Shown piece by piece: positions 9,133 to 46,486 of a stretch of DNA of 64,000 bases; position 1 is the stretch's first letter, and each line of letters opens with the position of its first letter. Both the position numbers and the translations under genes were made by a program. This stretch comes from Brucella pseudogrignonensis. Lineage in GTDB: Bacteria > Pseudomonadota > Alphaproteobacteria > Rhizobiales > Rhizobiaceae. The notes below the pieces were generated by a model. It was not told the origin of the DNA. It made no database searches and saw only the letters and a program-made list of their open reading frames with translations. The stretch lies in NCBI RefSeq assembly GCF_002252525.1, contig NZ_NNRM01000046.1:62001-126000 (forward strand), read 5' to 3'.

Positions 9133-9162
9133 AAAATTGCTTCCAAATTCTGCATTTTGAAA

Positions 9163-10556: not shown

Positions 10557-10558
10557 GC

Positions 10559-23972: not shown

Positions 23973-26900
23973 ATGAGAATTCTATTTGATTTGCAGGCGT
24001 TGCAGACTGAAAGTAGGTTTCGCGGAATTGGTCGTTATGCAAAATCGCTGATCGATAGCTTGGTTCGGACATCTGGTAATCATCAGATGATTTTTGTTAT
24101 CAGTGACCTTTTTCCTGAGACGGTCGAACCGTTGAAAGCATATTTTGAAGAGCTGGATGCCGGTGAACTCGTACTGTTTAGTGGGGTAGCTGGTGTCCGT
24201 GCTATGGAAATAGAGACTGTTCCAAATAGACTTGTACAAGAGAGAATTTACTCAACTTTTATTGCTGACCTCAAGCCCGATGTCTTATTGATACTTAGCC
24301 CTTTTGAAGGTTACGTCGACGATGCGATCCGACCCGTTAATTTGGAAGGTTTTTTGGTTGGTGGGCTTATTCATGATCTTATACCGCTTGTACAGAAAAA
24401 TATTTATCTTGATCCAAACCCGCGTTACAGTAATTTTTATATGGATACGCTATTAGGCGTTAAAAATTTTGACTTCTTTCTTACAAATTCAGACAATACG
24501 AAACAGGAATTACTTCAGCATTGCCATTTGAATCCAGATGTTGTGATTAATATTGACGGGGCTCCGGAACCGTTTTTCGAATTTGATGATGATAAAGACG
24601 AGATTCATGAAATAATAGATGGTAAGTATATTCTTTATTCCGGAGGCGGAGATCCGAGAAAAAATTTACCCAGATTGATTAGTGCTTACTCTAAGCTGCC
24701 AATTGATGTGCAGAGAGAATATAAAATTGTGTTTGCTGGACGTTTATCACCGGGCGAGCAACATGTACTAGTTGAGCAATGTTCAAGGAACGGTCTTTCT
24801 GAAGAGCAAGCTATATTTACTGGGTATGTTTCTGATCGGGCGTTAAGGCAATTGTACTCACATTGTAGCTTGTTTATATTCCCCTCTTATCACGAGGGGC
24901 TTGGGTTGCCAGTACTCGAAGCAATGAAATGCGGTGCCCCAGTAATCGTGGCTAACGCTGCTGCTTTGCCTGCTTTGGTGGATTTCGACGGGGCTCTATT
25001 CGATCCCTTCGATGTTCTTTCGATATGTGACAAAATTAAGGAGGCTCTGACGAATGAGGAGCTTCGGCGCGCACTTATCGAAAATGCCATCACTCGTTGT
25101 TCCATTTACACTTGGGAACGTTCCGCTGGGCTGGCCTTAGGGGCACTAAACAGTTTGACCGATGTCAAAGATGTAAATTTCGAAGAATATAGTATTTTGC
25201 GTGATAATCGGTACGCAGCTCTAATCGAATTCATAGGTCAAAAAATTGCAGATGACCCAGATCTCGAAAAGAGTCATCTTCTGCAATGGTCGCAACAAAT
25301 TGCGAATAATCAAACAACAGCGCGTCGGGTAGTGAGATCCTCATGGCCGATAGCTGAATCGTCTAACTGGCGATTAGAGGGGCCTTTTGACAGCACATAT
25401 AGTTTAGCTCTTGTCAACCGCGAGATTGCTCGGGCGTTAGAAGTCAACGGCAATCGCGTTTCTCTGCATTCGACTGAGGGCCTTGGTGACTTTGAACCAA
25501 ACGCGCAATTTTTAAGGAAGCACCCGGACTTAAAGCAGCTCTACGACCGAAGCAAGACATACAATGTTTTTGCGAATGACGTTCAGAGCAGAAACATTTA
25601 CCCGCCGCGTGTATCTGATATGCGTGGTAAAATTAATATGTTACATAATTATGCTTGGGAGGAGAGTGGATTTCCTTCACAATGGGTAGATCAGTTCAAT
25701 GACTATCTCGACGGTATCGCATGTGTATCCAACCATGTACGAAGCCTCCTCATAAGCAATGGTGTAGCTCTACCACTTTCAGTTACTGGTAATGGCGTCG
25801 ACCATTGGGAGAAAGTCGTTTCCGATAAAGAGATATCATTCGAAGGTAGGGAATTCAAATTCTTACATGTTTCATCGTGCTTCCCTCGCAAGGGCATAGA
25901 TCTATTATTGGAGGCCTTCGGCTTTGCTTTCTCTATTAAAGATAATGTATCTTTAATAATAAAGACCTTTCCAAATCCTCACAATGATGTGCGAGCACAA
26001 TTGAATCGGCATAGATCACGGAATCCGCTTTATCCGCATGTGATAATTTTAGAGGAAGATTTGCAAGAGTCTCAGTTAAAGGCACTCTATGAAGCTTGTG
26101 ATGTCTTGGTTTGTCCGAGTTTCGCTGAGGGCTTCGGTTTGCCGTTGGCAGAGGCGATGCTTTCGGGTGTACCTGTCATCACAACTGCGTGGGGCGGACA
26201 AATGGATTTTTGTTCAACAGAAACCGCATGGCTCTTGGACTATGATTTCAAACTCGCCAAATCGCATATCGATCTGCCGGATTCCGTATGGGCTGTGCCA
26301 AAAACGTGCGCGATTGTCAATGCAATGAAAGAGGCATACGCTAGTTCGGCTGAGGAGCGCTCATTGAAAGCTGAGCTGGGAAAGGCGCTCCTCCTAAAAC
26401 GGTTCCGGTGGCAGCACGTCGCACACAGGCTGAGTCAGTCAATCAAGGACTTAGGCCTAGCGCAAAAGAAAAATGAACCCCGAGTAGGTTGGGTCACTAC
26501 CTGGGATACGAAATGTGGCATAGCAACGTATTCAGAACACCTTTTGGAATATTGGCCAGGACAGGTATCGATATTCGCTAGAAAGGATGGCCAACGCATC
26601 CGCAACGATGGTCGCGATGTGCAATTCACTTGGCGTGATGATAATCAAGATAATCTTGGCGAAACCCAGACATCGATAGATGACCATAATATAGATGTAA
26701 TAGTAATTCAGTTTAACTACGGTTTTTTCAACTTCAAGAGCTTTTCGAATTTCATAGAACGGAATCATTTTTTGGGTCGAAAGATAATTGTCGTCCTCCA
26801 TTCGACGACTGACCCGGTCCAAACACCAGAAAAAAAGCTTGAGAACCTCGTTCCAGCGCTGAAACTTTGTGATCGTTTGCTTGTACACGGGTGTAGCGAT

Positions 26901-27587
26901 CTTAATCGACTAAAGACATACGGTTTGGTCGAGAATGTCGCAATTTTTCCTCATGGTATCTTAGATTTTGAAGGGTCGGCAAATTCTGCTTATAATCGAA
27001 CTGATAAAGACGCATTTACGGTGGCGACTTACGGTTTTTTTCTACCACATAAAGGACTAATCGAAACTATTCAGGCATTTGATTTATTGAGAGAGAAAGG
27101 GGCTAACGTCAAACTCAATATGTTGAATGCTCAGTTCCCCGCTCCTATTTCAGCTTCTTTAATCCGGGAAGCTCAATCTATGATACGGGGTAAGTTGGAC
27201 GATGTCGTATCTCTAACAACTGATTTTTTATCAGACCGCGAAAGTTTGGAACAATTATCTGCAGCCGATCTGATTTTGTACCCTTATCAGAACACTGCGG
27301 AGTCGGCGAGTGGTGCAGTTCGGTATGGGTTAGCAGTAAATAAACCTGTAGCGGTCTCGCCAGCACCAATATTTGATGATGTGAATGATGTTGTTTTCCA
27401 ACTTCCAGGAACAAATCCGGAAGCAATAGCGAATGGTGTCATTGCGTTGCGGGAAAGTATTCGAACTGGAGACGATTTATTTCTTAAAAAATCTGCATGC
27501 GCGTCACGTTGGTGTGATTCCCATCGATATTCGTATGTATCGAAAAGATTGTACAATATCGTGCGTGGTCTCTGGATCAATGGCTGA
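23973..27587 (+). CDS. Multi-domain glycosyltransferase (three GT-B-like units)
   Basis: 1204 residues, far longer than a normal 350-400 residue GT4 enzyme. Unit 1 (about 1-390) has a full GT4 donor site with EGLGLPVLE (E308 and E316). Unit 2 (about 460-830) has NGVDHWEKV, the SCFPRKGIDLLLEAF segment and EGFGLPLAE (E719, E727). Unit 3 (about 836-1204) begins VGWVTTWDTKCGIATYSEHLL and has only ESASGAVRYGLA in place of the EX7E motif, so it may be of another subtype or not catalytic. The arrangement recalls the multi-domain polymannosyltransferases (WbdA type) that build ABC-exported O-chains on the inner face of the membrane. It probably adds repeated residues to the lipid-linked chain. The region is AT-rich relative to flanking genes. 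Confidence 0.85.
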   Translation: MRILFDLQALQTESRFRGIGRYAKSLIDSLVRTSGNHQMIFVISDLFPETVEPLKAYFEELDAGELVLFSGVAGVRAMEIETVPNRLVQERIYSTFIADLKPDVLLILSPFEGYVDDAIRPVNLEGFLVGGLIHDLIPLVQKNIYLDPNPRYSNFYMDTLLGVKNFDFFLTNSDNTKQELLQHCHLNPDVVINIDGAPEPFFEFDDDKDEIHEIIDGKYILYSGGGDPRKNLPRLISAYSKLPIDVQREYKIVFAGRLSPGEQHVLVEQCSRNGLSEEQAIFTGYVSDRALRQLYSHCSLFIFPSYHEGLGLPVLEAMKCGAPVIVANAAALPALVDFDGALFDPFDVLSICDKIKEALTNEELRRALIENAITRCSIYTWERSAGLALGALNSLTDVKDVNFEEYSILRDNRYAALIEFIGQKIADDPDLEKSHLLQWSQQIANNQTTARRVVRSSWPIAESSNWRLEGPFDSTYSLALVNREIARALEVNGNRVSLHSTEGLGDFEPNAQFLRKHPDLKQLYDRSKTYNVFANDVQSRNIYPPRVSDMRGKINMLHNYAWEESGFPSQWVDQFNDYLDGIACVSNHVRSLLISNGVALPLSVTGNGVDHWEKVVSDKEISFEGREFKFLHVSSCFPRKGIDLLLEAFGFAFSIKDNVSLIIKTFPNPHNDVRAQLNRHRSRNPLYPHVIILEEDLQESQLKALYEACDVLVCPSFAEGFGLPLAEAMLSGVPVITTAWGGQMDFCSTETAWLLDYDFKLAKSHIDLPDSVWAVPKTCAIVNAMKEAYASSAEERSLKAELGKALLLKRFRWQHVAHRLSQSIKDLGLAQKKNEPRVGWVTTWDTKCGIATYSEHLLEYWPGQVSIFARKDGQRIRNDGRDVQFTWRDDNQDNLGETQTSIDDHNIDVIVIQFNYGFFNFKSFSNFIERNHFLGRKIIVVLHSTTDPVQTPEKKLENLVPALKLCDRLLVHGCSDLNRLKTYGLVENVAIFPHGILDFEGSANSAYNRTDKDAFTVATYGFFLPHKGLIETIQAFDLLREKGANVKLNMLNAQFPAPISASLIREAQSMIRGKLDDVVSLTTDFLSDRESLEQLSAADLILYPYQNTAESASGAVRYGLAVNKPVAVSPAPIFDDVNDVVFQLPGTNPEAIANGVIALRESIRTGDDLFLKKSACASRWCDSHRYSYVSKRLYNIVRGLWING

Positions 27588-27610: not shown

Positions 27611-28732
27611 GTGAAAATTGGCGTCGATGGTCGAAACTTAATTCATAACTTGAGCGGTATAGGTAGATACGTTTGGCAGATGTGTAGAGCTCTGTCGGAA
27701 AGGGGGCACTCGATAACTATCTACATGCCAGCCCCCCCTAACCATTCGATACAAGAAGCTCAAGGCATCCAAATCAAGGTGTCAAAGGCAAATGGAGCTT
27801 TTAGACGCACACTCTGGAGTGCCACGAGACTCGCTAGGATGGCCAATCTGGATGAATTAGATCTCTTTTGGGGACCCGCACATCGACTGCCGAGCGGACT
27901 TCATAAGAATACAGCTCGCGTTGTCACCGTACACGATATGGTTTGGCGCCGAGCAAGTGAGACTATGCATTGGCAAACTTGGCTTGGCGAACTACTTTTT
28001 ATGAACACTGCTATAAAGAACGCAGACTCAATAGTTACCGTATCGGACGCAACACTGAAGGATGTAAGTTATTACTATCCCGCGACGTCCGGTAAGCTTC
28101 ACTTAGTTTATCCTGGTATCACGAATCTCGGTCTAATTAGAGATACTGACATGGAAAGATTCGGGATAGATAGACCATTTGCTCTATTCGTCGGAACATT
28201 AGAGCCGAGGAAAAACCTTAACCGTTTATTGGAAGCATATAGCTTACTCGGAAGTAATCTGAGAAAGGATATTTTGTTGGTCCTTGCTGGTGGGCAGGGT
28301 TGGGGGATGGGGCGACTATCTGATATAGTGCAAAAATATAATGTTCAGGACACAGTAAGGATAACAGGTTACGTTAGCGACAGAGAATTATCGCAACTAT
28401 ACTGTGAAGCACGGTTTTTAATAATGCCGTCACTGTACGAAGGTTTCGGTTTGCCAATAATTGAAGCTCAGCAGTACGGCACACCTGTTATATCGTCAAT
28501 TCTATCGTCTATGCCTGAGGTAACAGGCGCTGGGGGAATTCTCGTTAATCCCCTAAATACAAAGGAAATAGCGCTGGCAATCCACCAGCTGTCGACAGAC
28601 AGGGCTTTGCATGCGGAGTTGAGCGCCAGAGCGAAACTGAACTCCCTGAGGTTTTCGTGGAAGGAAGCAGCTGTTAAGGTAGAAAAAATATTTGAAGAAA
28701 GTATAGTTAAAAGGCGAAAAGAGGGATACTAG
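27611..28732 (+). CDS. Glycosyltransferase family 4
   Basis: 373 residues starting at GTG 27611. The N-terminal GVDGRNLIHNLSGIGRYVW segment is the nucleotide-sugar fold opening, and the donor site EGFGLPIIEA (EX7E) sits near residue 278. GTLEPRKNLNRLLEAY is the usual GT4 middle loop. It follows the 1204-residue enzyme by 23 nt and is probably translated from the same transcript. Likely a mannosyl- or similar hexosyltransferase in chain assembly; the donor cannot be read from the sequence. Confidence 0.88.
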   Translation: MKIGVDGRNLIHNLSGIGRYVWQMCRALSERGHSITIYMPAPPNHSIQEAQGIQIKVSKANGAFRRTLWSATRLARMANLDELDLFWGPAHRLPSGLHKNTARVVTVHDMVWRRASETMHWQTWLGELLFMNTAIKNADSIVTVSDATLKDVSYYYPATSGKLHLVYPGITNLGLIRDTDMERFGIDRPFALFVGTLEPRKNLNRLLEAYSLLGSNLRKDILLVLAGGQGWGMGRLSDIVQKYNVQDTVRITGYVSDRELSQLYCEARFLIMPSLYEGFGLPIIEAQQYGTPVISSILSSMPEVTGAGGILVNPLNTKEIALAIHQLSTDRALHAELSARAKLNSLRFSWKEAAVKVEKIFEESIVKRRKEGY

Positions 28733-28739
28733 AGCGTTC

Positions 28740-28942
28740 CCTGACTGATTGAATCAGATGGCTTTGGAAAGCGGTCAATTTTGATTCAAGCTATCTGCCG
28801 ATGGAGGGCGGAAGATATGTCGCGAGCCCTTTCAATTGATCTTCGTATACGTGTAGGTGCCGCCGTTGACGGCGCCGCATCGCATCGAGAGGCTGCTGAA
28901 TTTTTCGGCGCGTACGCGCCGGTATCCGTAACGTCGTGGTAA
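28740..28942 (+). pseudogene. IS630-family transposase, 5-prime remnant
   Basis: After a GAGCGTT-type end, ATG 28817 opens a 41-codon frame (MSRALSIDLRIRV, then AASHREAAEFFG) that matches the N-terminus of IS630-type transposases and stops at TAA 28940. The expected helix continuing with SVSRW is altered. The rest of the element is missing; an IS1111-type element follows directly. Confidence 0.7.
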
Positions 28943-28984
28943 TCCCCCCGTTTTTAACGTGGCTCGTCAGTAGAATTCACGTGA

Positions 28985-30368
28985 GCGATGGGGTGGACGC
29001 TCCCACTCAACGGCATCTTTGTGCCAAGATGGTTGCGTTGGAACCATTCGTAGGGAGAGCGACCATGGAAAAAATTAGCATAATCGGCCTGGATTTGGCC
29101 AAGAGCATAATTCAAGTTCACGGTGCCAGTGCTGATGGGGCCGTTCTGTTTCGTCGAAAAATTTCAAGCAAGAAGTTGCTTGCCTTTCTCTCGGATGTTG
29201 ATCCTTGCATCGTGGCTATGGAAGCATGTGCCGGAAGCCACTATTGGGGCCGCGAGATTGCCCGTCTCGGGCATCGAGTAAAGTTGATCGCACCAATCTA
29301 CGTCAAGCCTTTTGTGAAACGACAGAAGAACGATGCGGCTGATGCGGAAGCCATCTGCGAAGCCGCAATGCGACCGACTATGCGTTTTGTAGCAGTCAAA
29401 AGCGAAGAAAAGCAGGCCGCGGCGACAGTGTTCAAGGTACGTGACCTTCTGGTGCGACAGAAGACCCAAATCATCAATGCTCTGCGCGGACTTATGGCAG
29501 AGTTCGGAGTTACTGTTCCACAAGGCCCTTCGCACGTCGGTATTCTGATCAGCTACGTCGAAGACGATAGCTCGAGCCTGACGGATGCGGCACGTGCGCC
29601 TTGCCTGGCACTGATTTCAACATTGCGGGCTCTCATCGATAAGGTTCGAGAGCTTGATCTGGAGATTGGTCGAAGGGCTCGGCACGATGATGTTGCCAAG
29701 CGGCTCATGAGCATTCCCGGGGTTGGTCCTGTCATCGCAACAGCGCTCGAAGCTTTAGCGCCGCCAGCTGAGACATTTACACGAGGTCGAGATTTCTCCG
29801 CGTGGATGGGTTTGACACCGCGACAGCATTCGTCAGGCGGCAAAGCCCGCCTTGGCAAGACCTCGAAGATGGGGCAGCGAGATCTTCGACGACTGTTGAT
29901 CATTGGCGCATCAGCCGTTGTTCGCTGGGCGTCAAGGCGCGGCGCGGTTGAAGATTCCTGGTTGTCGCGCATGATCGGCAAAAAGCCGCCTATGCTGATT
30001 ACGGTGGCACTCGCAAACCGAATGGGGCGCATTGCGTGGGCGCTTATGACAAACGGAGGTTGCTACGAGGAAAAGAGGTTGGCAGCATAGATCGGCTCTG
30101 GCGGAGAGGGTTTCTCATCTGCCATTGCGAGTGTAGGCAGGTCGAACGAAGGATATGGACAAACGGTCACGACGGGATTAGGAAAACCAGTTCTGCCGGA
30201 CGGCACCTTGAGTGCGCGTGAGCGTGTTGGACCTGATCTGCGAACTCCCATATGGGCCCGCGACATGATAAGGTCGCAACGAGAGGCCGGACACACGTCA
30301 GCACCCGACCAATGTTCAAGAATGAGTGAAGATTTTGCTTGCATTCGAGGGAGCGTCCACACACGTCC
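28985..30368 (+). mobile_element. IS110 family element of the IS1111 group
   Basis: Contains one transposase gene (29065-30090) flanked by a perfect 12-bp subterminal inverted repeat: GTGGACGCTCCC at 28993-29004 and GGGAGCGTCCAC at 30349-30360. Subterminal repeats are the mark of the IS1111 group. The exact outer ends are not defined (this group makes no clear terminal repeats), so the boundaries are approximate. The 258-bp non-coding stretch between the transposase and the right repeat is where IS1111 elements carry their guide (bridge) RNA. Confidence 0.75.
29065..30090 (+). CDS. IS110 family transposase (IS1111 group)
   Basis: 341 residues, the normal size. The N-terminal DEDD-type (RuvC-like) domain has GLDLAKS and the MEACAGSHYWGREIARLGH segment, with KNDAADAEAICEA; the C-terminal helix-hairpin and serine domain shows SIPGVGPVIATALEALA and GLTPRQHSSGGKARLGKTSK. 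The ATG at 29065 follows TAGGGAGAGCGACC; a longer frame to 28936 lies outside the element. No stops or frameshifts are present, so it is probably functional. Confidence 0.88.
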   Translation: MEKISIIGLDLAKSIIQVHGASADGAVLFRRKISSKKLLAFLSDVDPCIVAMEACAGSHYWGREIARLGHRVKLIAPIYVKPFVKRQKNDAADAEAICEAAMRPTMRFVAVKSEEKQAAATVFKVRDLLVRQKTQIINALRGLMAEFGVTVPQGPSHVGILISYVEDDSSSLTDAARAPCLALISTLRALIDKVRELDLEIGRRARHDDVAKRLMSIPGVGPVIATALEALAPPAETFTRGRDFSAWMGLTPRQHSSGGKARLGKTSKMGQRDLRRLLIIGASAVVRWASRRGAVEDSWLSRMIGKKPPMLITVALANRMGRIAWALMTNGGCYEEKRLAA

Positions 30369-30672: not shown

Positions 30673-32031
30673 TTAACCGACTGAAAATTGAGAGATAGAA
30701 CATTGCGGACACCAAACTCCCCACAGATCAAGCTTTACATCTTGTGAAGGAAATTCAACGCTAAACCTCGCGCCCCCAGCCACGTAATCCACGATTTCAT
30801 CCGTAAGGAGCTGACCGAATTGTTTAGGGTTCCTTTTGAAGGTTCCAATGCCTGCAATAACGCCATACTCTCCTGGAGCCAGCAGGTTATCAAACTCGAA
30901 TTCTATTACGTCCAGCGGGCTGCTGGTCCGAGACTTAAGTACCACATCGCTTGTAAGCGAGTTAAAATGAAGAAGCTGCCTACCTGAGCTATCGGTAATT
31001 CCCAACGTCAATCCACAGTCTGGAGGCAATTTCTCAAACACACGATAAAAAATCCGCACACGAAGTCGCTCCTTAAACGAGACGGTGTCAGTTTCAGCCC
31101 CTTCACGGTTTATTATTGATATATCAACGATTTGCGCTTCACCGCTTCCAGACCTTAAATCACTAACTCGCTGTTCAAAGAGACGATGACGATTGTCATT
31201 GTACTTCACCTCAGAAGAAGCAAGGGTGGCGTCAACAATAGTTGGAAGGTTCTCGTCAACTGGCTGGGGTTCGATTCCAGAATGGATCATTCTACGAAAG
31301 ACGTCTGCTTGATAAGCGGCACCGACTTCAGAGGAGGATCCTTCCATACGCACAAGCCCATGGTCCATCCATAGCCCTGTAGTACAAAGTGCGCGAACTG
31401 AATCTGCTGCATGTGTCACGTAAATAAAAGAGGTTCCATCATCTAATAGAGCCTTTATTTTCTGCAAACACTTATTCTGAAAATAAGCGTCTCCGACGCT
31501 TAAGGCTTCGTCTACGATTAGTATATCCGGTTTAACATAAACAGCACAAGAAAAACCCAATCGGACAGCCATGCCACTGCTGTATGTTTTTACGGGATGC
31601 TTGACAGCCTCTCTCAACTCACTGAACGCTACAATTTTGGGTAGTGCAATCTCGATTTCCTCACGAGACATGCCGTGCAATAGACAATACTGGCGAATGT
31701 TCTCGACGCCGGTCAACTCTCCATTAAAACCCGCACCCAATTCCAATAAGGCTGAAATACGCCCAGATGTTTCAACTGTTCCAGCAGTCGGCGTAAGAAC
31801 GCCAGCTAGCACCTTCAACAGAGTGCTTTTTCCGCTGCCGTTACTGCCAACTATACCTAACCTGCCGCCCTTCGGAAGAACGAATGAGACATTCCGCAAC
31901 GCTGCGGTTTCGTTAGAGCGAACACGCCGCCCCCCGGACAGTAATTCCATCAACCGGTCGCGTGGGGTAGAATATGTCTTGTAGACTTTAGATACATTCT
32001 GGAAAACCACTGCGTTAGAGCTGGTCGTCAT
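30673..32031 (-). CDS. wzt: O-antigen ABC exporter ATPase with C-terminal substrate-binding domain
   Basis: 452 residues. The ABC domain (about 1-250) has Walker A GSNGSGKST at 62-70, the family signature YSSGMAVRLGFS, and Walker B DILIVDEALSVGD. The C-terminal 160 residues (from about 290) form a second domain, as in Wzt proteins of O8/O9a-type systems where it recognises the capped non-reducing end of the polysaccharide. I choose ATG 32031, preceded by AGGGAT; a start at 32133 would overlap wzm. It energises the Wzm channel encoded 25 bp upstream. Confidence 0.88.
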   Translation of the reverse strand: MTTSSNAVVFQNVSKVYKTYSTPRDRLMELLSGGRRVRSNETAALRNVSFVLPKGGRLGIVGSNGSGKSTLLKVLAGVLTPTAGTVETSGRISALLELGAGFNGELTGVENIRQYCLLHGMSREEIEIALPKIVAFSELREAVKHPVKTYSSGMAVRLGFSCAVYVKPDILIVDEALSVGDAYFQNKCLQKIKALLDDGTSFIYVTHAADSVRALCTTGLWMDHGLVRMEGSSSEVGAAYQADVFRRMIHSGIEPQPVDENLPTIVDATLASSEVKYNDNRHRLFEQRVSDLRSGSGEAQIVDISIINREGAETDTVSFKERLRVRIFYRVFEKLPPDCGLTLGITDSSGRQLLHFNSLTSDVVLKSRTSSPLDVIEFEFDNLLAPGEYGVIAGIGTFKRNPKQFGQLLTDEIVDYVAGGARFSVEFPSQDVKLDLWGVWCPQCSISQFSVG

Positions 32032-32056
32032 AAATTTTATCCCTGGATAATGCACG

Positions 32057-32863
32057 TTATAATACGTCCGAAAACCCGGGCCGTAGCTTTTTAAAGCTCC
32101 AAATCCCGAAAATAAAGATGCCAAAGCATGCAATAATACTTAAAATCAATCCATGCCATGTTCCCAACCCATGTCCAAAAACAGAGTATCTTGCAAACTC
32201 AACCAAATAATAGAAGGGGTTCAAGTCGGCGATCAGGACTTGTGCCCAAATTACCCCACTATCGCGGACGAGGGTCGCTGGATAAAGAATGGGCGTCATC
32301 CAAAAAAGTATATTCACCGCAACGGGTATTATCTGTTCCATGTCTGGTATATATACCGAAATTGCGGATATCAAATAAGAAAAACCTATAGTCAAGAGTA
32401 GGCAAGAAAGCCAAACTAAGCCATAGATTGGTAAAAATTCCCAAGTTGGTGTGACTCTAAATATAGACATCAATAAAACCACAATAAAAACAATAACCAA
32501 CTGCGATATAAATGCAGATGCGAGTGGAATTAATGGTAAAACCCGAACCGGGAAAGATATCTTGTTTATAAGATAGCTATATTGCTTAAGAATTCCGGTG
32601 CTTCTTATGACTACTTCAGAAAAGAAGCTCCAGAGTGTAAAAGGGACGAAATAAAACAAAGAAAACGGGATGTCTCCATAATGGACGCCCATTCGTCCTC
32701 GCATCAGGATGGAAAAGACGAAAACATTAATGACGGCATACAGTAATGGAACCCCGATTGTCCAAACAATTCCGGCATACGAGCTAGCATATCTATTTCT
32801 TACATCTCGCAAAGCGAGCATCCAAGCTAGTCGTAAACTATTTTTTATCTCATTTTTTAGCAT
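32057..32863 (-). CDS. wzm: O-antigen ABC exporter permease
   Basis: 268-residue ABC-2 type membrane protein with about six transmembrane segments and the amphipathic N-terminal segment (RLAWMLALRDVRNRYASS) that marks polysaccharide exporters. It forms the channel that moves the completed lipid-linked glycan to the periplasmic face. It overlaps the upstream glycosyltransferase by 7 bp and precedes wzt by 25 bp. Confidence 0.9.
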   Translation of the reverse strand: MLKNEIKNSLRLAWMLALRDVRNRYASSYAGIVWTIGVPLLYAVINVFVFSILMRGRMGVHYGDIPFSLFYFVPFTLWSFFSEVVIRSTGILKQYSYLINKISFPVRVLPLIPLASAFISQLVIVFIVVLLMSIFRVTPTWEFLPIYGLVWLSCLLLTIGFSYLISAISVYIPDMEQIIPVAVNILFWMTPILYPATLVRDSGVIWAQVLIADLNPFYYLVEFARYSVFGHGLGTWHGLILSIIACFGIFIFGIWSFKKLRPGFSDVL

Positions 32864-33993
32864 TTTATATCCAGTTTTGTACGCCGACCATATAATTCCA
32901 GAGCTTTCAATAAATCACGTCTTATACTGTTGGGGGAATAGTGGCTAATGTGAGATATGGCGTCCCTTACGTATCGGGAATAACCTCCATCACCGCTTCG
33001 CCAGTCGGGCGAACTAACCTTCAATAATAAAGAAGAAATTGCTTCTGTTAGTAATACGGTGTTTCCGGTAGCCACTAGGCTTCCCAATCCACCACAAACT
33101 TCTGGAACATTGCTGTTGTCATAAGAAACAACAAGACAACCTGCTGATATCGCTTCAAGGATTGGGACGCAAAATCCCTCGTGATACGTTGGAAGCACAA
33201 ATATATCAGCCTCCGCCAATATCTTGTGCTTAGCATCATTCGATGCATTTCCGTGAATATTAAATAGTATCTTGTCCTTAGCTTTTGAATGAATCTTTTC
33301 AATGTTCGCTTTTAGTCTATCGAAAACTATCTCATCTGAGAATTTTAGGTTTCCGATCAAATCGACTTGCAAAACAAGCTCAATATTTCCGCTTACGATG
33401 TTGTTTAAAGATTTTATTAAATCGTCAATTCCCTTGGATTGAACAAATCGACCGACAAAAGCTATACGTATAATATTGTCATGGAAACTCGGCTTTGTTG
33501 ACGGAGGATAATCAGGTATATCTATGGAAAGTGGCACTACCGTGTTATCTGTATTGATTCCAGCACTCCGCAAAACCCCCTGGTTAACCTTGCTGCAACA
33601 GATTATCTTGTCGGCAAATCGCATATTATGCATTTGAGCGATGCTACGGTCAATTATTTGGTGCGCAGAGGGTGGCAAATATGCCTTTGGAGTAATATTA
33701 TGAAAGATGACATATTTCTTTGACATTTTGTTGGCTGAAAATATTGCGTTGAAGAGTTCGTGATATACGCCAAAATGAAAAACGATCAGATCGCTGCTTT
33801 GAAAATGGGGGTGGAGTATAATTTCTCCAACAGATTTGACCAATGTGTGTGGAACTTCGGCGTAATCGCAGGCAAATGCAAAAAGGACGACCTCATTGGA
33901 AGCCTTCTCTCGCACCCACTTAATCTCTTGAACAATAGCGTTAGAGATGGCGTCATTCGCGACGCACACCGAATTAATATATGATATTTTCAT
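32857..33993 (-). CDS. Glycosyltransferase family 4
   Basis: 378 residues. The C-terminal donor site HEGFCVPILEA fits the EX7E pattern, with the preceding segment ADIFVLPTYHEG typical of GT4. The middle loop is FVGRFVQSKGIDDLIKSL. The N-terminal acceptor half is AT-rich and diverges from other GT4 enzymes in the window. It overlaps wzm by 7 bp and follows the GT2-GT4 fusion gene by 26 bp, so it belongs to the exporter operon. Confidence 0.87.
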   Translation of the reverse strand: MKISYINSVCVANDAISNAIVQEIKWVREKASNEVVLFAFACDYAEVPHTLVKSVGEIILHPHFQSSDLIVFHFGVYHELFNAIFSANKMSKKYVIFHNITPKAYLPPSAHQIIDRSIAQMHNMRFADKIICCSKVNQGVLRSAGINTDNTVVPLSIDIPDYPPSTKPSFHDNIIRIAFVGRFVQSKGIDDLIKSLNNIVSGNIELVLQVDLIGNLKFSDEIVFDRLKANIEKIHSKAKDKILFNIHGNASNDAKHKILAEADIFVLPTYHEGFCVPILEAISAGCLVVSYDNSNVPEVCGGLGSLVATGNTVLLTEAISSLLLKVSSPDWRSGDGGYSRYVRDAISHISHYSPNSIRRDLLKALELYGRRTKLDIKC

Positions 33994-34019
33994 AGTGTTG
34001 CCCGATGGAGATAGAATAC

Positions 34020-36251
34020 TTATTGCTCTTCTTCTTTTCGGCTTATAGCCATTCTATATAGACCAATTGACGCCACGGCCATCTTATCGGCGGTAAATCT
34101 GCTTTCGTATATCTCACGACCAGCCGATCCCATCGTCTGACGTAAATCTTTGTTATCGATAAGAGTTTGAAGAGCTTCGGTAAGCATGATGACATTATTA
34201 GTTTCTATCAGATAACCATTCAATTTATCTATGACTATCTCTGGAATGCCGCCAACATTCGTGCCAATGACCGGCTTTCCTGCTCGCATTGCTTCCAAGA
34301 ATATTAAACCAAATGATTCAAATCTGCTCGGTGCTACAAAGATATCACATGATTGGTAAGCCTCTATTAAGCTATCCTCTGTCACTTTTCCTTCAAATAC
34401 CACTTGATCGAACCAAGAGTAATTTTGATACGCTTGGGTGAACTGCTCCATATATGTCTTGTGGTCGCAATTAAGAAGCGAGTTGTCGCCAATGATCCTG
34501 ACGCAGATGTCGGAATTGTTCTCGAGGATGCCTTGTAAAGAGCTCAGGAGGATGTCTATTCCTTTTCGGGCCTCCAATCGGCCAACAAATAGTATTTCAA
34601 TATGATTTCTGTCTTCATTCTGTATGAAACCATGCTGTAGACTTACTTCGGACAAACCGTGTGGAATGACGAGAATTCCATCCGGATTGAACTTGAATTC
34701 ATAGGCGTTTTCTATTTCAGTCACGATCGCTCTACTGTTAGCCCGGACCGCATCCGACCGTGTCATCAACAGTTTCTCCGTAGCGAGCATTGTTAAGCCG
34801 AATTCCTCCATCCATTTCTTGTCATAGGCTTTCTCGGGGTGACTGTTTAGCCAGAAGTGCATTGTAGTGTGCAAGCTGGTGACCAGCGGCCATTTTCCAT
34901 CTGATAGAAAAGCAATACCTTCGCAGTCCCATATGGGCGCTTCAACTACATCAATCGGGCGGTGCGTTTGAATTCGTTCGACTTCTTCAAGAGCGGTAGC
35001 CGACCAATCCCAAATATTTTTCGGAATGGCGGCGAGTTCCGGATCAACGCTTGGTTCGTATTGTTTAGTCAGAATTCGGTGTACCCAAACCCCGTCTTCG
35101 AAGTCGACTCGATTTATATCGTAACTTTGCGTTACGACGTGAACAATGTTTCCGTTCCGTGCGAGTGATTGTGCGAGATCACGTGTAAATATTGCGATGC
35201 CCCCGCCGTACTCGGGTGGGAAATCTCTTGAAATGAGAACAATATTCTTAGCGCTCGATGTCCCATTAACTCCAAATTTTAGAAACGCTCCGTCGTATTG
35301 TGCCAATGATGCGTCAGTTATAAATTTTCGATTTGGTTCAATTTGCAGTCCTCTTCGCAAACCAATTTCCAATGCTTTGCTAACATCAATTGAAAATTGC
35401 TCTGCATCACTAGACGAGAGGAGCCCTTCGCCCTCACACCACAGAACGTCCCTTTTCTGATCAACAATGAAGTTATTTATCTCTTCAAGGGCTATATCGA
35501 TAGAGTGGAATTCAAGACTGTGCTTGAGTATGAAGTAAACTTTATTCTTAACGATTGGGAATCTATTTCTTGTGGCTTTATTCTCTCCACGAATGTTACT
35601 CGGAGCATACTTGTGATGCACATATGCATTAGGCAGTTGAGTGATAAGATATCCTGCATCAACGATCCGGATACAGAGATCTGTTTCGTCGAGAAAGTAC
35701 TCATACTCTTCGTCAAATCCACCGATGTGCAATAGTACATTCCGTCTGAACGAAGAGTTGCAGCCCAATAGATGAGGAATATTATAACTTTTAGGAAAGG
35801 AATACTGAGGCGTTGCGCTAATCGCTGACAGATCAGCATTTCCGAACCGGTCAACTGTGCAATACTTATACTGGAAATTATATCCCGTATGGTCGTAGAC
35901 AAATCCGCCGGCCGCACCAACCGAAGGATCGCTGTATGCGGCTGTAAGTTGTTCCAGCCACTCTGGTTCCGGTATAGCATCATCGTCTAAGAATGCGATT
36001 ATATCTCCTCGAGCCATGGAGATCCCGATGTTTCGAGACATCGATAAGTTAGCCGTCGGACAATCAGCAATACGTACTTTATCACGCCACCGAGATAAAA
36101 CTTCCTGTGTGTTATCGATGGATGGACCGTTCACCACAACAACTTCGAAATCTCCACGGTATCTCAGCCAAACTAAGCTTTGGAGCGTCTTCTCCAAAAC
36201 AGAACTGCGGTTTAAAGTGTTAATAACTATCGATACACTAGGGGTAATCAT
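34020..36251 (-). CDS. Bifunctional glycosyltransferase: GT2 domain fused to GT4 domain
   Basis: 743 residues from ATG 36251, which overlaps the stop of the methyltransferase gene by 4 bp. The N-terminal GT2 (GT-A fold) domain (about 1-300) has VSIVINTLNR and the metal motif IAFLDDDAIP. The C-terminal GT4 (GT-B) domain (about 330-743) has RDFPPEYGGGIAIFTRDLA and the donor site ESFGLIFLEA. Two transferases of different folds in one chain could add two different sugars in sequence. A start at 36314 is possible but lies inside the upstream gene. Confidence 0.88.
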   Translation of the reverse strand: MITPSVSIVINTLNRSSVLEKTLQSLVWLRYRGDFEVVVVNGPSIDNTQEVLSRWRDKVRIADCPTANLSMSRNIGISMARGDIIAFLDDDAIPEPEWLEQLTAAYSDPSVGAAGGFVYDHTGYNFQYKYCTVDRFGNADLSAISATPQYSFPKSYNIPHLLGCNSSFRRNVLLHIGGFDEEYEYFLDETDLCIRIVDAGYLITQLPNAYVHHKYAPSNIRGENKATRNRFPIVKNKVYFILKHSLEFHSIDIALEEINNFIVDQKRDVLWCEGEGLLSSSDAEQFSIDVSKALEIGLRRGLQIEPNRKFITDASLAQYDGAFLKFGVNGTSSAKNIVLISRDFPPEYGGGIAIFTRDLAQSLARNGNIVHVVTQSYDINRVDFEDGVWVHRILTKQYEPSVDPELAAIPKNIWDWSATALEEVERIQTHRPIDVVEAPIWDCEGIAFLSDGKWPLVTSLHTTMHFWLNSHPEKAYDKKWMEEFGLTMLATEKLLMTRSDAVRANSRAIVTEIENAYEFKFNPDGILVIPHGLSEVSLQHGFIQNEDRNHIEILFVGRLEARKGIDILLSSLQGILENNSDICVRIIGDNSLLNCDHKTYMEQFTQAYQNYSWFDQVVFEGKVTEDSLIEAYQSCDIFVAPSRFESFGLIFLEAMRAGKPVIGTNVGGIPEIVIDKLNGYLIETNNVIMLTEALQTLIDNKDLRQTMGSAGREIYESRFTADKMAVASIGLYRMAISRKEEEQ

Positions 36252-37330
36252 GGTTTCTTCGCCTGAAATTCCATTTCGTAGCACGATCCATTGCGTCGTT
36301 TTACGGCTAACCAACGAATATCTGTGAAACCAGCATTAGCTAGGAGTTCTTCAACTTGAGATGGAACGAACATATTGAAATGAAAATCGCCATCATAGTC
36401 TTGGCCACCAAACATTACCTCTCTAAGAGAGTCATAAGGATAGCTACCATTCATATATTCACTCATCATTGATTGAGCATCCGGCACAACGGCGTGAAAC
36501 GATCCGCCGTTTTTCAGAATTCTGAACCAATGAGGTAGTAGCTCTCTCTTCAGCTGTTCTTGGGGAAAATGCTCCATAAGATGGGCAGAGAAAATTTCCT
36601 CTACAGAGCCTTCTTCAAATGGTAGATCATCAACTTCTGATACAAGGTCAACACCATCGAGTGCTCGACGATCCACATTAATGTAGCCATCTAACGGAAT
36701 ATGGCCACATCCCAAATTCAACTTAAGTAAGGTTGACTGGGCCTCTATTAACTTCTCTTCATTTATTATCTTTGTTTCAGCCTTGATTTCACTTTGATTT
36801 GGTGAACTGGCTCCGTACCGCATCTCAAACATTAATTCTCTTCGAACGAATTCAACGCGTCCCAGTAGGAATGCAACTGACTCTGATAATCCAGAAATCT
36901 TATTGTCGGTATCCTTCTGTTTACTGCTTATATCTCCTTCCAAGGTTTGAATGAGAGATTTTTCTGTTTGATCTGAGTAATTATCTTCCTTATGGTTCAG
37001 TCTTTGCTGTATTTCATTTATCTCTCTCTGCATTGCCCTGAGAGAGACGGGTACAGACTTGATCAGATTATTCTTATCGTTATCGGACGTACCTTGCCTC
37101 TGATTGATATCAGCTACAACTTCCAGAAGTTGTGGTATTTGGCCCTTTTCGAAATGCTCAAGCTTTTCGTGCAAATGCATAAGCATTTGCTTGTTCATAT
37201 CCATTCTATCGGAATAAGAGTCGCGCACTTCGGGTAGCCGGATTACAGCTACTCCTATTCGGATGAATCTTCCAACAACAGGCCAATCGGCCATGGCTCT
37301 CGCAGCTTTTCTTATGCGTGTTTTAATCAT
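36248..37330 (-). CDS. Coiled-coil SAM-dependent methyltransferase, candidate O-chain terminator
   Basis: 360 residues. Residues about 40-165 are charged, heptad-like and predicted coiled coil (HLHEKLEHFEKGQ, REINEIQQRLNHKED). The C-terminal methyltransferase domain has motif I LNLGCG at 204-209, the acidic loop INVD (D220), and PFEEGSVEEIFSAHLMEH. It is the first gene of the minus-strand run with the glycosyltransferases and Wzm/Wzt. In E. coli O8/O9a the WbdD protein combines a methyltransferase (with a kinase in O9a) and a coiled coil that measures and caps the chain for Wzt; here the coiled coil precedes the methyltransferase and no kinase domain is visible. A capping role is inference. 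Confidence 0.8.
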   Translation of the reverse strand: MIKTRIRKAARAMADWPVVGRFIRIGVAVIRLPEVRDSYSDRMDMNKQMLMHLHEKLEHFEKGQIPQLLEVVADINQRQGTSDNDKNNLIKSVPVSLRAMQREINEIQQRLNHKEDNYSDQTEKSLIQTLEGDISSKQKDTDNKISGLSESVAFLLGRVEFVRRELMFEMRYGASSPNQSEIKAETKIINEEKLIEAQSTLLKLNLGCGHIPLDGYINVDRRALDGVDLVSEVDDLPFEEGSVEEIFSAHLMEHFPQEQLKRELLPHWFRILKNGGSFHAVVPDAQSMMSEYMNGSYPYDSLREVMFGGQDYDGDFHFNMFVPSQVEELLANAGFTDIRWLAVKRRNGSCYEMEFQAKKP

Positions 37331-37648: not shown

Positions 37649-37745
37649 TCTCTGGTCCTCCAAATTGACGTGCTCACGTTGAATTAGGTCATTCAGAACT
37701 AGAATTTTTCACTTATAATCCCTTATCTGGGAGAAGGAGCTTTCC

Positions 37746-37796: not shown

Positions 37797-38649
37797 CTAC
37801 GTCGTAGACTCATAAACTGATGCACCAGATGCGCACGGCGATCAGTTTGACAGCAGCGAGGAAGTTGGCCGGATTTTTGTCGTAACGCGTTGCGATGCCA
37901 CGATAGTGCTTGATGCGGTTAAAGAAGCGTTCGACCAGATTTCTCTGGCGATAAACCCATGGCGAGAAGGCAAAGATCTCGCGGCGATTGGATTTGGGTG
38001 GAATGTTTGCCCATGCTTTTAGTTCTGCGGCTTTTTCCGGATGCCATCAGTATCGTAAGCTTTGTCAGCAAGCAGCGTGCCGCCTTCTTTGATGCACGCC
38101 ATGAGACCTTCAGCCTGCGAGCAATCAGCAACCTGACCACCCGTCAGGCAAAGATTGATCGGACGGCCTTCTGCATCAACAATTGCGTGGATTTTGCTTG
38201 TGAGGCCGCCCCGGGAACGTCCCATGCAACCATCGTCGGTATCCCCTTTTTTCCTGTGGCTTCGTGCTGGTGAACACGAACACAGGTGCTGTCGATCATA
38301 ACGATATCACCGTCATAGGCCTGAGAGACGGCCTCCAGCAATCGATCCCAGACACCAGCACGTCGCCAACGAACGAACCGGTTGTAGCAGGTCGTTGCAA
38401 CACCATAGCGCTCAGGGATTTCGGACCATGATGACCCGGTGCGAAACCGCCACAGAATACCATTGAGCACCATGCGATCATCAACGCGGGGCACGCCACG
38501 CGGTTTGCATGGCAACAGCGGCGCAATAATCGACCATTCCCGTTCTGTCAGTTCATAGCGGCGACGTGACATCAAGCTCCTCCAAATCCGAGCCCGTTGA
38601 ATCACTAGTCTATTCAAATAGCTAGTCTATTTATGAGTGCACGACCTAG
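37797..38649 (-). mobile_element. IS5 family element of the IS427 group, copy 1 (inactivated)
   Basis: 853 bp bounded by imperfect ~20-bp inverted ends (CTACGTCGTAGACTCATAAA at left; the right end reads CTAGGTCGTGCACTCATAAA on the minus strand). It is closely similar to the intact copy at 56452-57306. It is inserted on its left into an IS3 orfA and on its right into a third IS427 copy. Confidence 0.85.
37810..38572 (-). pseudogene. IS427-group transposase with a disrupted second half
   Basis: OrfA (ATG 38572) is open and contains ELTEREWSIIAPLLP and the YDGDIVMIDSTCVR catalytic region. The A AAA AAG heptamer at 38252-38246 would shift translation -1 into orfB (GRSRGGLTSKIHAI). OrfB then breaks in an A-run (T5 on the plus strand at about 38028-38032, where the intact reading requires three): the frame reads IRKKPQN and stops. 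The remaining DDE-domain portion (PWVYRQRNLVERFF region in copy 2) is out of frame, so this copy should be unable to transpose on its own. Confidence 0.8.
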
Positions 38650-39563: not shown

Positions 39564-39624
39564 AACCTTTTGGTTAGGTAGATATCCATGTTCCCCTTTG
39601 GGATGATTACAGCGAGTGGTAGTA

Positions 39625-41031
39625 ATGCAAGTAGCATTTGGAACCTCCGGGTTAAGAGGACCAGCGATTGAATTTACTGAAGAGCTTTGCGCGGCTTATG
39701 TCGGTTCATTCTTAGAAAACATGTCACATCGTTTCAAAATGCGTGAGGTTTATGTAGCTGCAGATCTTCGAGAATCTAGCCCAAGTATTGCTATGTCATG
39801 TTTAAAAGCAATCGATTTGCAAGGGAAGAAGGCGATTTGGGTTGGTAACGTTCCAACCCCTGCACTCGCTGCTTACGCAATGGCTCGTAATTCGCCGGCA
39901 ATAATGATAACGGGAAGTCATATCCCAGAAGCATACAACGGTATTAAATTCTATAGACCAGATGGTGAGTTCCTCAAGGAAGACGAATCTCCCGTACGTT
40001 CGCTAGCGAATGAGTTGTTAAGTAAGGGCAATATTGAGCAATCAGGTTCTCTAAGTTTACCTGAGCCCATTGCTGATCCTGCAGAAGAGTATGTTAGCCG
40101 TTTTCTCGATTCCTTTGGTCGCGATGCCCTGGCCGGAATGAAAATAGGTATCGATCTTCATTCCGCCGTGGGGCGGGATCTTCTCGTTCGCATATTTGAA
40201 GGCCTTGGCGCGGAGGTTCGTCCATTTCATAGAATGGAACGATTCGTTGCCGTTGATACAGAAGCGCTGGATCCCGCTGACTTGGAGAGGTCGCGCGAAT
40301 TTATTGTTGAGCACGGACTAGATGCCGTGGTGTCGACGGACGGTGATGGTGACCGACCTCTCGTCATTGATGATCAGGGAAAGCAGGTGAATGGAGATAT
40401 ACTGGGTATTCTGACAGCCCGGTATCTCGGTGCGAAAACTGTAGTTACGCCACTCAGTACGACAAGTGCTTTGGAAGAAAGCGGCTGGTTCGAAAATATT
40501 CGGAGAACACGGATTGGATCGCCCTATGTCGTGGCTGAAATGGCGTGTGCAGATGTTCATCCTGTCGTTGGTTTTGAGGCAAATGGCGGGTTTTTACTCG
40601 GCGATGATGTGATATTGAAGTCTGGCCTATTGCGCCGCCTGCCGACCCGTGATTCCGTTTTGCCAGCTGTGGCGGTTCTGGCGCAGGCGAAAGAGCAGGG
40701 CATGCGGTTGAGCCAAATGGTTGCGACACTTCCCTCCCGCTTCATGAAGGCTGATCGAGTCAAGGAAGTTCCTGCAGATCGCGCTATTCCATTTTTGCGC
40801 GCTATAGAAACGTCACAATCTTTCCGTTCTAGTTTCTCCTCCTTGATTGCCGCGCCGGAATCAATATCGACTGTGGACGGCGTGCGCATGGCGTTTGCGA
40901 ATGGCGATACGGTTCATTTTCGCCAGTCGGGCAATGCGCCGGAAATGCGGATTTACGTGGAAACGGATTCCGGGGAAAAGACCGAACGGATTTTGAGTGG
41001 GTTGATCGCAAAGCTTGCTGAGACAATCTAA
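39625..41031 (+). CDS. manB: Phosphomannomutase
   Basis: 468 residues. Interconverts mannose-6-phosphate and mannose-1-phosphate. The phosphoserine loop appears as MITGSHIPEAYNGIKFY (about residues 95-111) and the Mg2+ loop as STDGDGDRP; the C-terminal FRQSGNAPEMRIYVE is the sugar-phosphate binding loop. The catalytic site reads TGSHIP where most members have TASHNP. I use ATG 39625, three codons inside a GTG frame. It begins the GDP-mannose supply operon with manC and the AGE-family isomerase. Confidence 0.9.
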   Translation: MQVAFGTSGLRGPAIEFTEELCAAYVGSFLENMSHRFKMREVYVAADLRESSPSIAMSCLKAIDLQGKKAIWVGNVPTPALAAYAMARNSPAIMITGSHIPEAYNGIKFYRPDGEFLKEDESPVRSLANELLSKGNIEQSGSLSLPEPIADPAEEYVSRFLDSFGRDALAGMKIGIDLHSAVGRDLLVRIFEGLGAEVRPFHRMERFVAVDTEALDPADLERSREFIVEHGLDAVVSTDGDGDRPLVIDDQGKQVNGDILGILTARYLGAKTVVTPLSTTSALEESGWFENIRRTRIGSPYVVAEMACADVHPVVGFEANGGFLLGDDVILKSGLLRRLPTRDSVLPAVAVLAQAKEQGMRLSQMVATLPSRFMKADRVKEVPADRAIPFLRAIETSQSFRSSFSSLIAAPESISTVDGVRMAFANGDTVHFRQSGNAPEMRIYVETDSGEKTERILSGLIAKLAETI

Positions 41032-41057: not shown

Positions 41058-42482
41058 TTGCGTGAAATGTTGATCAGGCCAGTTGTGTTGGCAGGCGGGA
41101 AGGGTACGAGACTGTGGCCAATGTCGCGCTCTCGACGTCCAAAACAGTTTCTGGCTCTGACTGGCGAACTCAGCCTATTCCAGATGACACTGAAACGGTT
41201 GTCTGACCCGAAGCGCTATTCCAAGCCGATCATTATAACGAACGCAGACTATCGGTTTCTGGTGGCGGAACAGGCACTGGAATGTGGTGTCGAACTTTCA
41301 GACGTTATTCTGGAACCGGTCGCCCGTAACACGGCACCAGCCATTGCTGCTGCAGCGCTGATTGCTGCAAAAGATGAGCCGACATTGATCCATGTCGTGG
41401 CGTCGGACCACAATATTGAGTTGGACGATGCCTATTTTCAGGCCGTTGATACGGCCAGCAATGCCGCTCGCGTGGGCCGCCTTGCCACTTTTGGGATTAC
41501 GCCGATTGAACCGGCGACTGGTTTCGGTTACATCGAAGCTGGCGAGCTGGAAGAAAGCGGAGCCTGCGCGATCAAGCGTTTCGTAGAAAAGCCGAAAGAA
41601 GAAGTCGCCCGCGAGATGCTCGCGAAAGGTGGCTTCTACTGGAACTCGGGGATGTTCCTGTTCCGCTCGGATGTTTTCCTGGACGAATGCAAGCGCCATG
41701 CACCGTCAGTGTATGAGGCTGCGGAGGCTTCAGTTTCTGCTGCACATCGCGATCTCGACTTCGTCCGCTTGGATAGTACAGAGTTCGAAAAGGCTCCCGA
41801 TATTTCTGTCGATTATGCAATTTTCGAGAAAACAAAGCTCGCTTCGGTCGTCCCGTCTCCGATCCGCTGGTCGGACCTCGGATCATGGGATGCTGTCTGG
41901 AAGGAAAGCAAACAGGATCAGGCGGGTAACGTTGCACGTGGACCGGTCAGTCTTCACAACACCAATAATTCACTGGTCTTGTCCGAAGGCGTCCATGTTG
42001 CGGTCAACGGTGTCGATGATCTGACGATTGTAGCCTCGGAAGATGCGCTCTATGTCGGCAAGCTCTCTGAAGCACAAGGTGTAGGCATGATCGTAAAGGC
42101 GCTGATGAAGCAGCCCGCCACGGCAAAGCTCGCCGAGGAACACCGAACTATTTATCGCCCATGGGGCGGGTATACTCACCTGCTTTCGGGTGATCGGTTT
42201 CAGGTAAAGCGTCTTTTCATCAAGCCGGGCAAACAGCTTTCTTTACAAAAGCATCACCACCGTTCTGAGCATTGGGTGGTCGTGCGCGGCGTGGCTGAAA
42301 TTGTAATCGATGACAAAAGTCTTTTCCTGTCGGAGAATGAATCCACTTACATCTCGCAGGGGGCAGTGCACCGAGTTTCGAATCCCGGGAAAATCCTGCT
42401 TGAACTGATTGAGGTTCAGACCGGAGCTTATTTGGGTGAGGATGATATCGTACGCTTTGAAGACGATTTCGGGCGCGTTTGA
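41058..42482 (+). CDS. manC: Mannose-1-phosphate guanylyltransferase / mannose-6-phosphate isomerase
   Basis: 474 residues. The N-terminal nucleotidyltransferase opens VVLAGGKGTRLWPMSR and binds GTP; EPVARNTAPAIA and FVEKP complete the site. The C-terminal cupin domain (from about 350: EEHRTIYRPWGGYTHL, HHHRSEHWVVV) is the isomerase half of type II PMI/GMP enzymes. The start is TTG 41058 with AAGGAAG 6 nt upstream; ATG 41067 is possible. It produces GDP-mannose for mannosyl transfer or for GDP-derived deoxysugars. Confidence 0.92.
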   Translation: MREMLIRPVVLAGGKGTRLWPMSRSRRPKQFLALTGELSLFQMTLKRLSDPKRYSKPIIITNADYRFLVAEQALECGVELSDVILEPVARNTAPAIAAAALIAAKDEPTLIHVVASDHNIELDDAYFQAVDTASNAARVGRLATFGITPIEPATGFGYIEAGELEESGACAIKRFVEKPKEEVAREMLAKGGFYWNSGMFLFRSDVFLDECKRHAPSVYEAAEASVSAAHRDLDFVRLDSTEFEKAPDISVDYAIFEKTKLASVVPSPIRWSDLGSWDAVWKESKQDQAGNVARGPVSLHNTNNSLVLSEGVHVAVNGVDDLTIVASEDALYVGKLSEAQGVGMIVKALMKQPATAKLAEEHRTIYRPWGGYTHLLSGDRFQVKRLFIKPGKQLSLQKHHHRSEHWVVVRGVAEIVIDDKSLFLSENESTYISQGAVHRVSNPGKILLELIEVQTGAYLGEDDIVRFEDDFGRV

Positions 42483-45045: not shown

Positions 45046-45930
45046 ATGAAAGGCATTATCCTAGCCGGTGGCAGTGGTACGCGTCTTTATCCCTTGACGA
45101 TAGCTGTTTCGAAACAACTCCTTCCGATCTATGATAAGCCGATGATCTATTACCCGCTGAGCGTACTCATGCTCGCGGGTATCAGGGATGTTCTGATCAT
45201 TTCGACGCCGCATGATTTGCCCCTTTTCCAAAAGCTGCTTGGGGATGGCAGTGAGTTTGGCATGAGTTTTTCTTTTGCGGAACAGTCGCAACCCAACGGT
45301 CTGGCGGAGGCCTTCATCATCGGTCGCCATTTTATCGGCAACGACAATGTGGCTATGATTCTTGGCGATAATATCTATTTTGGCGATGGCCTGTCCCATC
45401 TATGCGGAAGCGCTGCGCGCAATACCAAGGGCGGCTCGGTTTTTGCCTATCGGGTGGAAGATCCGCAGCGTTATGGTGTTGTCGAGTTCGACCGGGCTAC
45501 AGGTAAGGCAATATCGATTGAGGAAAAACCTAGTCGACCGAAGTCCTCATGGGCAGTCACGGGGCTCTATTTTTACGATAATGATGTTGTGGATATTGCC
45601 GCTTCGCTCAAACCTTCTGCACGCGGTGAACTGGAAATTACGGCAGTCAACAATATCTACCTTCAGCGCGGAGATTTGACGGTCAGACAGTTAGGACGGG
45701 GTTATGCCTGGCTTGATACTGGCACGCATGAAAGCTTGCAGGACGCATCGTCCTTTGTGCGCACAATCGAAAAACGGCAAGGTATCAAGATTGCTTGCCC
45801 CGAGGAAATCGGGTTCGAGAAGGGCTGGATCAATGGCGATGCCGTTCTTGAACGGGCGGAAAAACTTGGGCAGACCGAATATGCTGCCTATCTGCGTCGT
45901 CGTGTTGAGGAAATTGGAAGCGAACGATGA
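45046..45930 (+). CDS. rmlA: Glucose-1-phosphate thymidylyltransferase
   Basis: 294 residues; first step of dTDP-L-rhamnose synthesis. The nucleotide motif [17 protein letters not shown] at the N-terminus, [11 protein letters not shown] and [12 protein letters not shown]-like [16 protein letters not shown] and the [13 protein letters not shown] loop are all present and typical of RmlA. It heads a four-gene operon (A, C, B, D) with overlapping or short junctions. Confidence 0.96.
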
Positions 45931-46478: not shown

Positions 46479-46486
46479 GGAAGCAG

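Follow-up and report, generated by a model that had tools for sequence, protein, structure and literature searches.

The window analysed here, a 64,000-nucleotide stretch of the Brucella pseudogrignonensis genome (contig NZ_NNRM01000046.1, positions 62,001 to 126,000), appears with moderate confidence to encode the terminator and exporter of an E. coli O8-type polymannose pathway, in which WbdD would have been replaced by a methyltransferase of the opposite polarity, with its putative coil ahead of the catalytic domain (hereafter the coil-methyltransferase). A cap-and-export system had been proposed in an initial annotation of the window; the coil-methyltransferase, its reversed domain order and the fold of the Wzt domain were upheld by the present analysis, but the argument drawn from a missing kinase, the expected cap contacts and the link to the Wzt_C domain were not.

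Gene content of the locus

The O-antigen loci of E. coli strains HS (annotated O9) and IAI1 (annotated O8) served as references for the window. The complete O8-type polymannose set, namely WbdA of the O8 type, WbdC, WbdB, ManC, Wzm and Wzt, was found to be represented (Table 1), with WbdB and Wzm being 30% and 28% identical to their counterparts. The WbdA homologue is a candidate polymannose polymerase, and WbdC is annotated in E. coli as a mannosyltransferase acting on GlcNAc-PP-undecaprenol. Relative to the E. coli O8 exporter, identities were 27.7% for Wzm and 34.0% for Wzt, the latter alignment (residues 12-397) reaching into the binding domain. No BLAST match to WbdD was found among non-overlapping window ORFs of at least 120 aa (E 1e-3 against O9, 1e-5 against O8). 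The window thus holds, as judged from its sequence, an O8-type polymannose cluster in which the terminator slot is probably taken by the coil-methyltransferase, and the finding of such a cluster without WbdD makes a terminator role for this protein more likely. Three more glycosyltransferase modules were present than in the O8 set, contributed by a GT4 protein (GT4b) and a GT2-GT4 fusion.

Table 1. Genes of the O-antigen region and its adjoining transposases, in window coordinates
Feature	Position	Strand	Size and evidence
WecA-like glycan-initiating transferase	20974..21981	-	PF00953
E. coli O8 WbdA homologue, full-length, GT4 modules	23973..27587	+	1204 aa; 42.9% over 1233 columns, 943 bits; Pfam
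WbdB-like GT4	27611..28732	+	29.7% over 380 columns, E 4e-38
IS110-family transposase	28936..30090	+	
Wzt, nucleotide-binding domain and C-terminal carbohydrate-binding domain (Wzt_C)	30673..32031	-	452 aa
Wzm, ABC-2 permease	32057..32863	-	PF01061, E 2.6e-10
GT4 glycosyltransferase (GT4b)	32857..33993	-	
GT2-GT4 fusion glycosyltransferase	34020..36314	-	
Coil-methyltransferase	36248..37330	-	360 aa
IS4/5-family transposase fragment	38144..38617	-	
Phosphomannomutase/phosphoglucosamine-mutase-like protein	39616..41031	+	
ManC, mannose-1-phosphate guanylyltransferase/isomerase	41058..42482	+	TIGR01479 above cut-off; 45.7% to O8 ManC
WbdC homologue	43843..44952	+	47.4% over 367 columns, E 8e-129
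rmlA, rmlC, rmlB, rmlD-like genes (dTDP-rhamnose)	45046..48438	+	Pfam
O-antigen ligase-like protein	48871..50160	-	Wzy_C

The five minus-strand genes recognised in the initial annotation, encoding in order the coil-methyltransferase, the GT2-GT4 fusion, GT4b, Wzm and Wzt, were all present at the positions and in the order given there. The GT2-GT4 gene probably starts with the ATG at 36251, within an ATGA common to the methyltransferase stop, whilst Wzt, listed as an ORF at 30673-32133 with a TTG start, more likely begins with the ATG at 32031, 25 bp past the wzm stop. The genes are closely packed: the first two share the ATGA (if GT2-GT4 starts at 36251), and the remaining junctions are gaps of 26 bp and 25 bp with an overlap of 7 bp between them. 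The operon lies between the IS110 transposase on one side and the IS4/5 fragment on the other; around the latter, upstream of the methyltransferase, more transposase remnants were noted by eye (37500-38980).

Architecture of the coil-methyltransferase

In this protein, amphipathic helices at the N-terminus are followed by a periodic helical stretch of approximately 140 residues, and a class I methyltransferase domain forms the C-terminal part. An AlphaFold model, built from 28 sequences as a monomer (pTM 0.55), placed helices at residues 2-14, 19-30, 33-117 and 122-172 and was confident for the methyltransferase domain from about residue 187 to 360, but was weak in places, with block means of 48-53 at residues 81-100 and 51-57 at 161-180. 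The two N-terminal helices had hydrophobic moments of 0.62 and 0.66, and a single helix taken from the catalytic domain had one of 0.39.

Within residues 31-170, hydrophobic residues recurred with a 3.5-residue periodicity (z 3.3), a value reached by 1 of 500 shuffles, whereas the catalytic domain had no such periodicity (z 0.9; 91 of 500 shuffles); in the controls, the coil of E. coli O9 WbdD scored 4.9 and its kinase -0.3, all stretches having been picked by hand. The strongest of the nine periods tried in the window coil was nevertheless 3.6, a value common to all amphipathic helices, and the periodicity by itself therefore falls short of demonstrating a coiled coil; among 11 relatives tested, 3.5 was the strongest period in nine. 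Of the long N-terminal coiled coil originally described, then, the long periodic helix was recovered, and the joining of a methyltransferase to an extended coil is supported by periodicity and a monomer model. If straight, the helix would measure approximately 21 nm. At its end, ahead of the methyltransferase domain, is a conserved RxEFxRxExxxE motif (residues 158-169), of which R158 and R163 were invariant and E160, F161, E165 and E169 nearly invariant in the 28 sequences.

Comparison with described terminators

The reversed order, coil first and methyltransferase last, was borne out by domain matches and the AlphaFold model, and a profile search returned no kinase match in the protein. The absence of a kinase had been taken to mark a variant terminator, a step that does not hold, the E. 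coli O8 enzyme being itself methyltransferase-only in the account available from PMC3482155; E. coli WbdD measures 425 aa in O8 and, as a methyltransferase-kinase, 708 aa in O9a. The enzyme resembles WbdD of O8 and O9a in its joined methyltransferase and coil and in having wzm, wzt and wbdA as neighbours, resembles that of O8 in lacking a kinase, and has an estimated coil length near the approximately 200 Å given for O9a WbdD in the available part of PMC5082667. It differs in polarity, in that the N-terminal head and the C-terminal coil and membrane region of WbdD were not found in this arrangement in the window. The coil-methyltransferase also appears to have no detectable close relationship to WbdD; in hhalign, O9 WbdD was matched with a probability of 1% and O8 WbdD with one of 65% across 90 core columns, the latter a weak core match of the kind shared by class I methyltransferases.

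In the accessible portions of five reports (PMC11231755, PMC13168486, PMC2943079, PMC3482155, PMC5082667), the terminators described carry their catalytic head at the N-terminus. Amongst these, the E. coli O101/O162 MT shares with the window's protein a methyltransferase and coil, a proposed ruler, an ABC-transporter pathway and a terminal O-methyl group, but its methyltransferase is N-terminal and its coil C-terminal (PMC13168486, as far as available). WsaE of Geobacillus stearothermophilus likewise shares the joining of methyltransferase to glycosyltransferases, a terminal O-methyl cap and Wzm/Wzt export, and differs in its N-terminal methyltransferase (PMC2943079, in part). ORF6 of Klebsiella pneumoniae O7, per the available text of PMC11231755, unites polymerase modules, coil and methyltransferase terminator in one polypeptide, as does one homologue of the coil-methyltransferase (L110, see below); ORF6 is ordered methyltransferase-kinase-coil-GT and L110 GT-GT-GT-linker or coil-methyltransferase, i.e. 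read backwards. No Pfam kinase match was found in L110, a weak test given that the O7 kinase is itself unannotated.

The Wzt carbohydrate-binding domain

The window Wzt contains an ABC_tran domain (residues 45-177) followed by a jelly-roll Wzt_C domain (PF14524, residues 292-396; E 1.5e-14, 54.6 bits against a cut-off of 30.4). The C-terminal extension thus exists as previously reported, though with approximately 200 residues after the nucleotide-binding domain instead of 160, and its expected nature as a carbohydrate-binding module was supported by structure comparison, in which it had the same fold as the cap-binding domains from O9a, O12 and A. aeolicus. Foldseek ranked the Kdo-binding O12 domain first and the A. 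aeolicus domain (8dky) eighth, and with TM-scores of 0.5-0.6 and this order of matches the ranking says little on ligand.

One alternative is ordinary O8 chemistry, whereby the methyltransferase 3-O-methylates the last mannose as does O8 WbdD and only the domain order differs. Both the O8-type polymerase and the nearest fold for the Wzt tail by VIA, the A. aeolicus domain with bound 3-O-methyl-mannose, are consistent with this, but the cap contacts speak indirectly against it, and it is judged rather unlikely. Of eight cap-contacting positions of A. aeolicus Wzt that were examined, five are retained in E. coli O8 Wzt (Asn313, Ala348, His350, His355 and Trp362) and one in the window Wzt (Asn313), in a low-identity alignment that is not a structural superposition. 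Across eight window-type domains (that of the window included), neither His350 nor Ala348 was conserved in any, and Trp362 was conserved in one, His355 in three and Asn313 in four; W362L essentially abolishes binding, according to the available part of PMC9445017, which describes the 8dky domain. Recognition of a methyl cap like that of O8/O9a, as initially envisaged, was accordingly not supported, and the cap is probably other than plain 3-O-methyl-mannose, to the extent that aligned residues can indicate this.

Homologues of the coil-methyltransferase

One scan of named genomes yielded 38 loci with relatives, originating from Burkholderia (53% identity over residues 2-359), Cupriavidus, Variovorax, Massilia, a Methylococcaceae MAG, Alphaproteobacteria, cyanobacterial and actinobacterial MAGs, Cohnella and Snodgrassella. 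The motif was recognisable by pattern search in 36 of 40 homologue loci, and in these 36 the position of the motif relative to the methyltransferase domain revealed the same reversed order. From motif to C-terminus the length was nearly constant (median 207 aa, quartiles 204-210), whereas the length ahead of the motif, which rests on start codons as called (checked for L082 and L083), varied from 67 to 709 aa, or up to 1370 aa when L110 and L098 are counted. The longest such part, that of L110, contains glycosyltransferases, and that of L098 (511 aa; protein encoded at 8762-10921 of that locus) an FkbM methyltransferase domain. As far as sequence comparison goes, the whole family is built in the inverted order, with a near-constant head on a varying shaft, and provides a natural series in which coil length could be tested against glycan length.

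Tandem repeats were scanned in two coils, chosen since their repeats were visible by eye. The coil of the Methylococcaceae relative (L081) is an array of 4.1 copies of 21 bp, equivalent to one heptad, at 98% match, and that of Sphingomonas glacialis (L108, 1261-2874) comprises 8.0 copies of 201 bp (67 residues) at 83%; arithmetically, 67 residues equal eight heptads plus one 11-residue unit. A tract repeated heptad by heptad would be a genetic means of tuning glycan length. In Bauldia litoralis (L103, 8945-10780, 611 aa), a hydrophobic, membrane-spanning-looking stretch was noted by eye before the coil.

A GT2-GT4 homologue was encoded in 32 of the 38 fetched loci, with a fused version in one more, and a GT4b homologue in 25; several of the 38 stretches end early at contig ends. 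A WbdA homologue was near the methyltransferase in five, so the other 33 lack one in the fetched stretch. This last count weighs against the favoured reading and raises the possibility that GT4b, GT2 and GT4 constitute a polymerase of their own, with the coil-methyltransferase as its terminator and the O8-like polymannose as a second glycan. L110, which adjoins Wzm and Wzt and recalls polymerase-terminator proteins in being a single chain of GT4, GT2 and GT4 modules plus the methyltransferase, is in keeping with a separate polymer (its first GT4 bears a weak likeness to GT4b, 22.6%), as is the layout of the window, where the operon is on the strand opposite to wbdA with the IS110 element in between. 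The proposal is nonetheless doubtful. The whole genome has a single match to this Wzm (E 1e-5) and one Wzt_C protein, hence a separate polymannose would be without such an exporter; in Burkholderia territorii one strand carries wzm, wzt and the wbdA homologue together with the methyltransferase, GT2-GT4 and GT4b genes; and operon and WbdA region are equal in GC content (0.43-0.44, compared with 0.495-0.561 in nine other measured stretches).

Association of the methyltransferase with Wzt

The pairing of this methyltransferase with a cap-binding Wzt, central to the earlier proposal, proved to be loose. Wzt_C was matched in one of seven and five of eight methyltransferase-carrying genomes (two sets) and was therefore absent from nine of the 15, suggesting that the module can work or persist without a cap-binding exporter. 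Variovorax sp. YR216 has two separate methyltransferase loci (L084, L088) and no Wzt_C match in its genome. Thirteen of the 38 fetched stretches contained a Wzt, which had the extra domain in ten, lacked it in two and was cut in one; ten of 12 was not above the base rate (Fisher p 0.22), which was taken from 89 of 140 Wzt-like matches with frames of at least 380 aa (48 of the best 50). In L094, L098 and G486 a Wzt without the extra domain was found within about 13 kb, and in L087 a window-type Wzt about 12 kb away.

The window-type binding domain proved rare, being identified in three of 398 genomes of the phylum, two of which matched at E 1e-6 and lacked the methyltransferase, and in two of 269 genomes of the family of B. 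territorii, both with the methyltransferase. All three genomes with a strong match carry the methyltransferase, although two of these had served as search centres and the third (G1283) was known beforehand through its methyltransferase.

These distributions bear on a further explanation, internal decoration, whereby the enzyme methylates a side-chain, adaptor or repeat sugar supplied by GT2-GT4 and GT4b, the coil only scaffolds, and chain ending and export selection rest elsewhere. The methyltransferase is indeed accompanied by GT2-GT4 and GT4b more often than by a cap-binding Wzt (10 of 38 loci), it occurs in genomes without a Wzt_C match, and the dTDP-rhamnose genes supply a sugar unneeded by polymannose. 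We nevertheless consider internal decoration rather unlikely, as no other terminator candidate was present among the cluster ORFs scanned, and a pure scaffold leaves unexplained the near-constant head on very different shafts, two of them with tandem repeats.

Proposed mechanism

In the favoured reading, that of a terminator and exporter acting on O8-type polymannose, the WecA-like enzyme and WbdC would prime the lipid carrier, the WbdB-like enzyme would extend it, and the WbdA homologue would polymerise mannose at the membrane. The coil-methyltransferase, presumably oligomeric, would sit on the membrane via its N-terminal amphipathic helices, with the helix of approximately 140 residues serving as a ruler that keeps the C-terminal methyltransferase away from the polymerase, such that only chains above a minimum length would be methylated. 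GT4b and the GT2-GT4 fusion would work with it, probably adding at least one different sugar to the chain end prior to methylation, and the carbohydrate-binding domain of Wzt would recognise this end and admit the chain to Wzm. If the cap has been exchanged on an otherwise conserved O8 polymer and the pocket of the exporter altered to match, cap recognition could be tested comparatively.

More tentatively, GT4b, GT2-GT4 and the coil-methyltransferase might be a portable back-to-front cassette that caps polymers produced by different enzymes with an oligosaccharide plus methyl group, and that here displaced an O8-type WbdD, the exporter domain being remodelled to fit and ruler length being set via tandem coil units down to a 21-bp heptad. 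If so, chain length could shift by slippage of these units. By record titles, the same cassette occurs in four phyla, namely Proteobacteria, Cyanobacteria, Actinobacteria and Firmicutes, some of which are without LPS.

Other features of the window

A MobA/TraI-like relaxase-helicase with a C-terminal BID match (PF17841, E 4.3e-8) is encoded at 51240-55262 (+), adjoining the O-antigen cluster, and suggests a mobile element. Further along, the ORF at 58355-59116 had no Pfam match, and the product of the gene that follows it (59113-60087, +) matches the HEPN domain at its C-terminus (PF05168, E 8.2e-11), the two being a possible defence or toxin-antitoxin pair.
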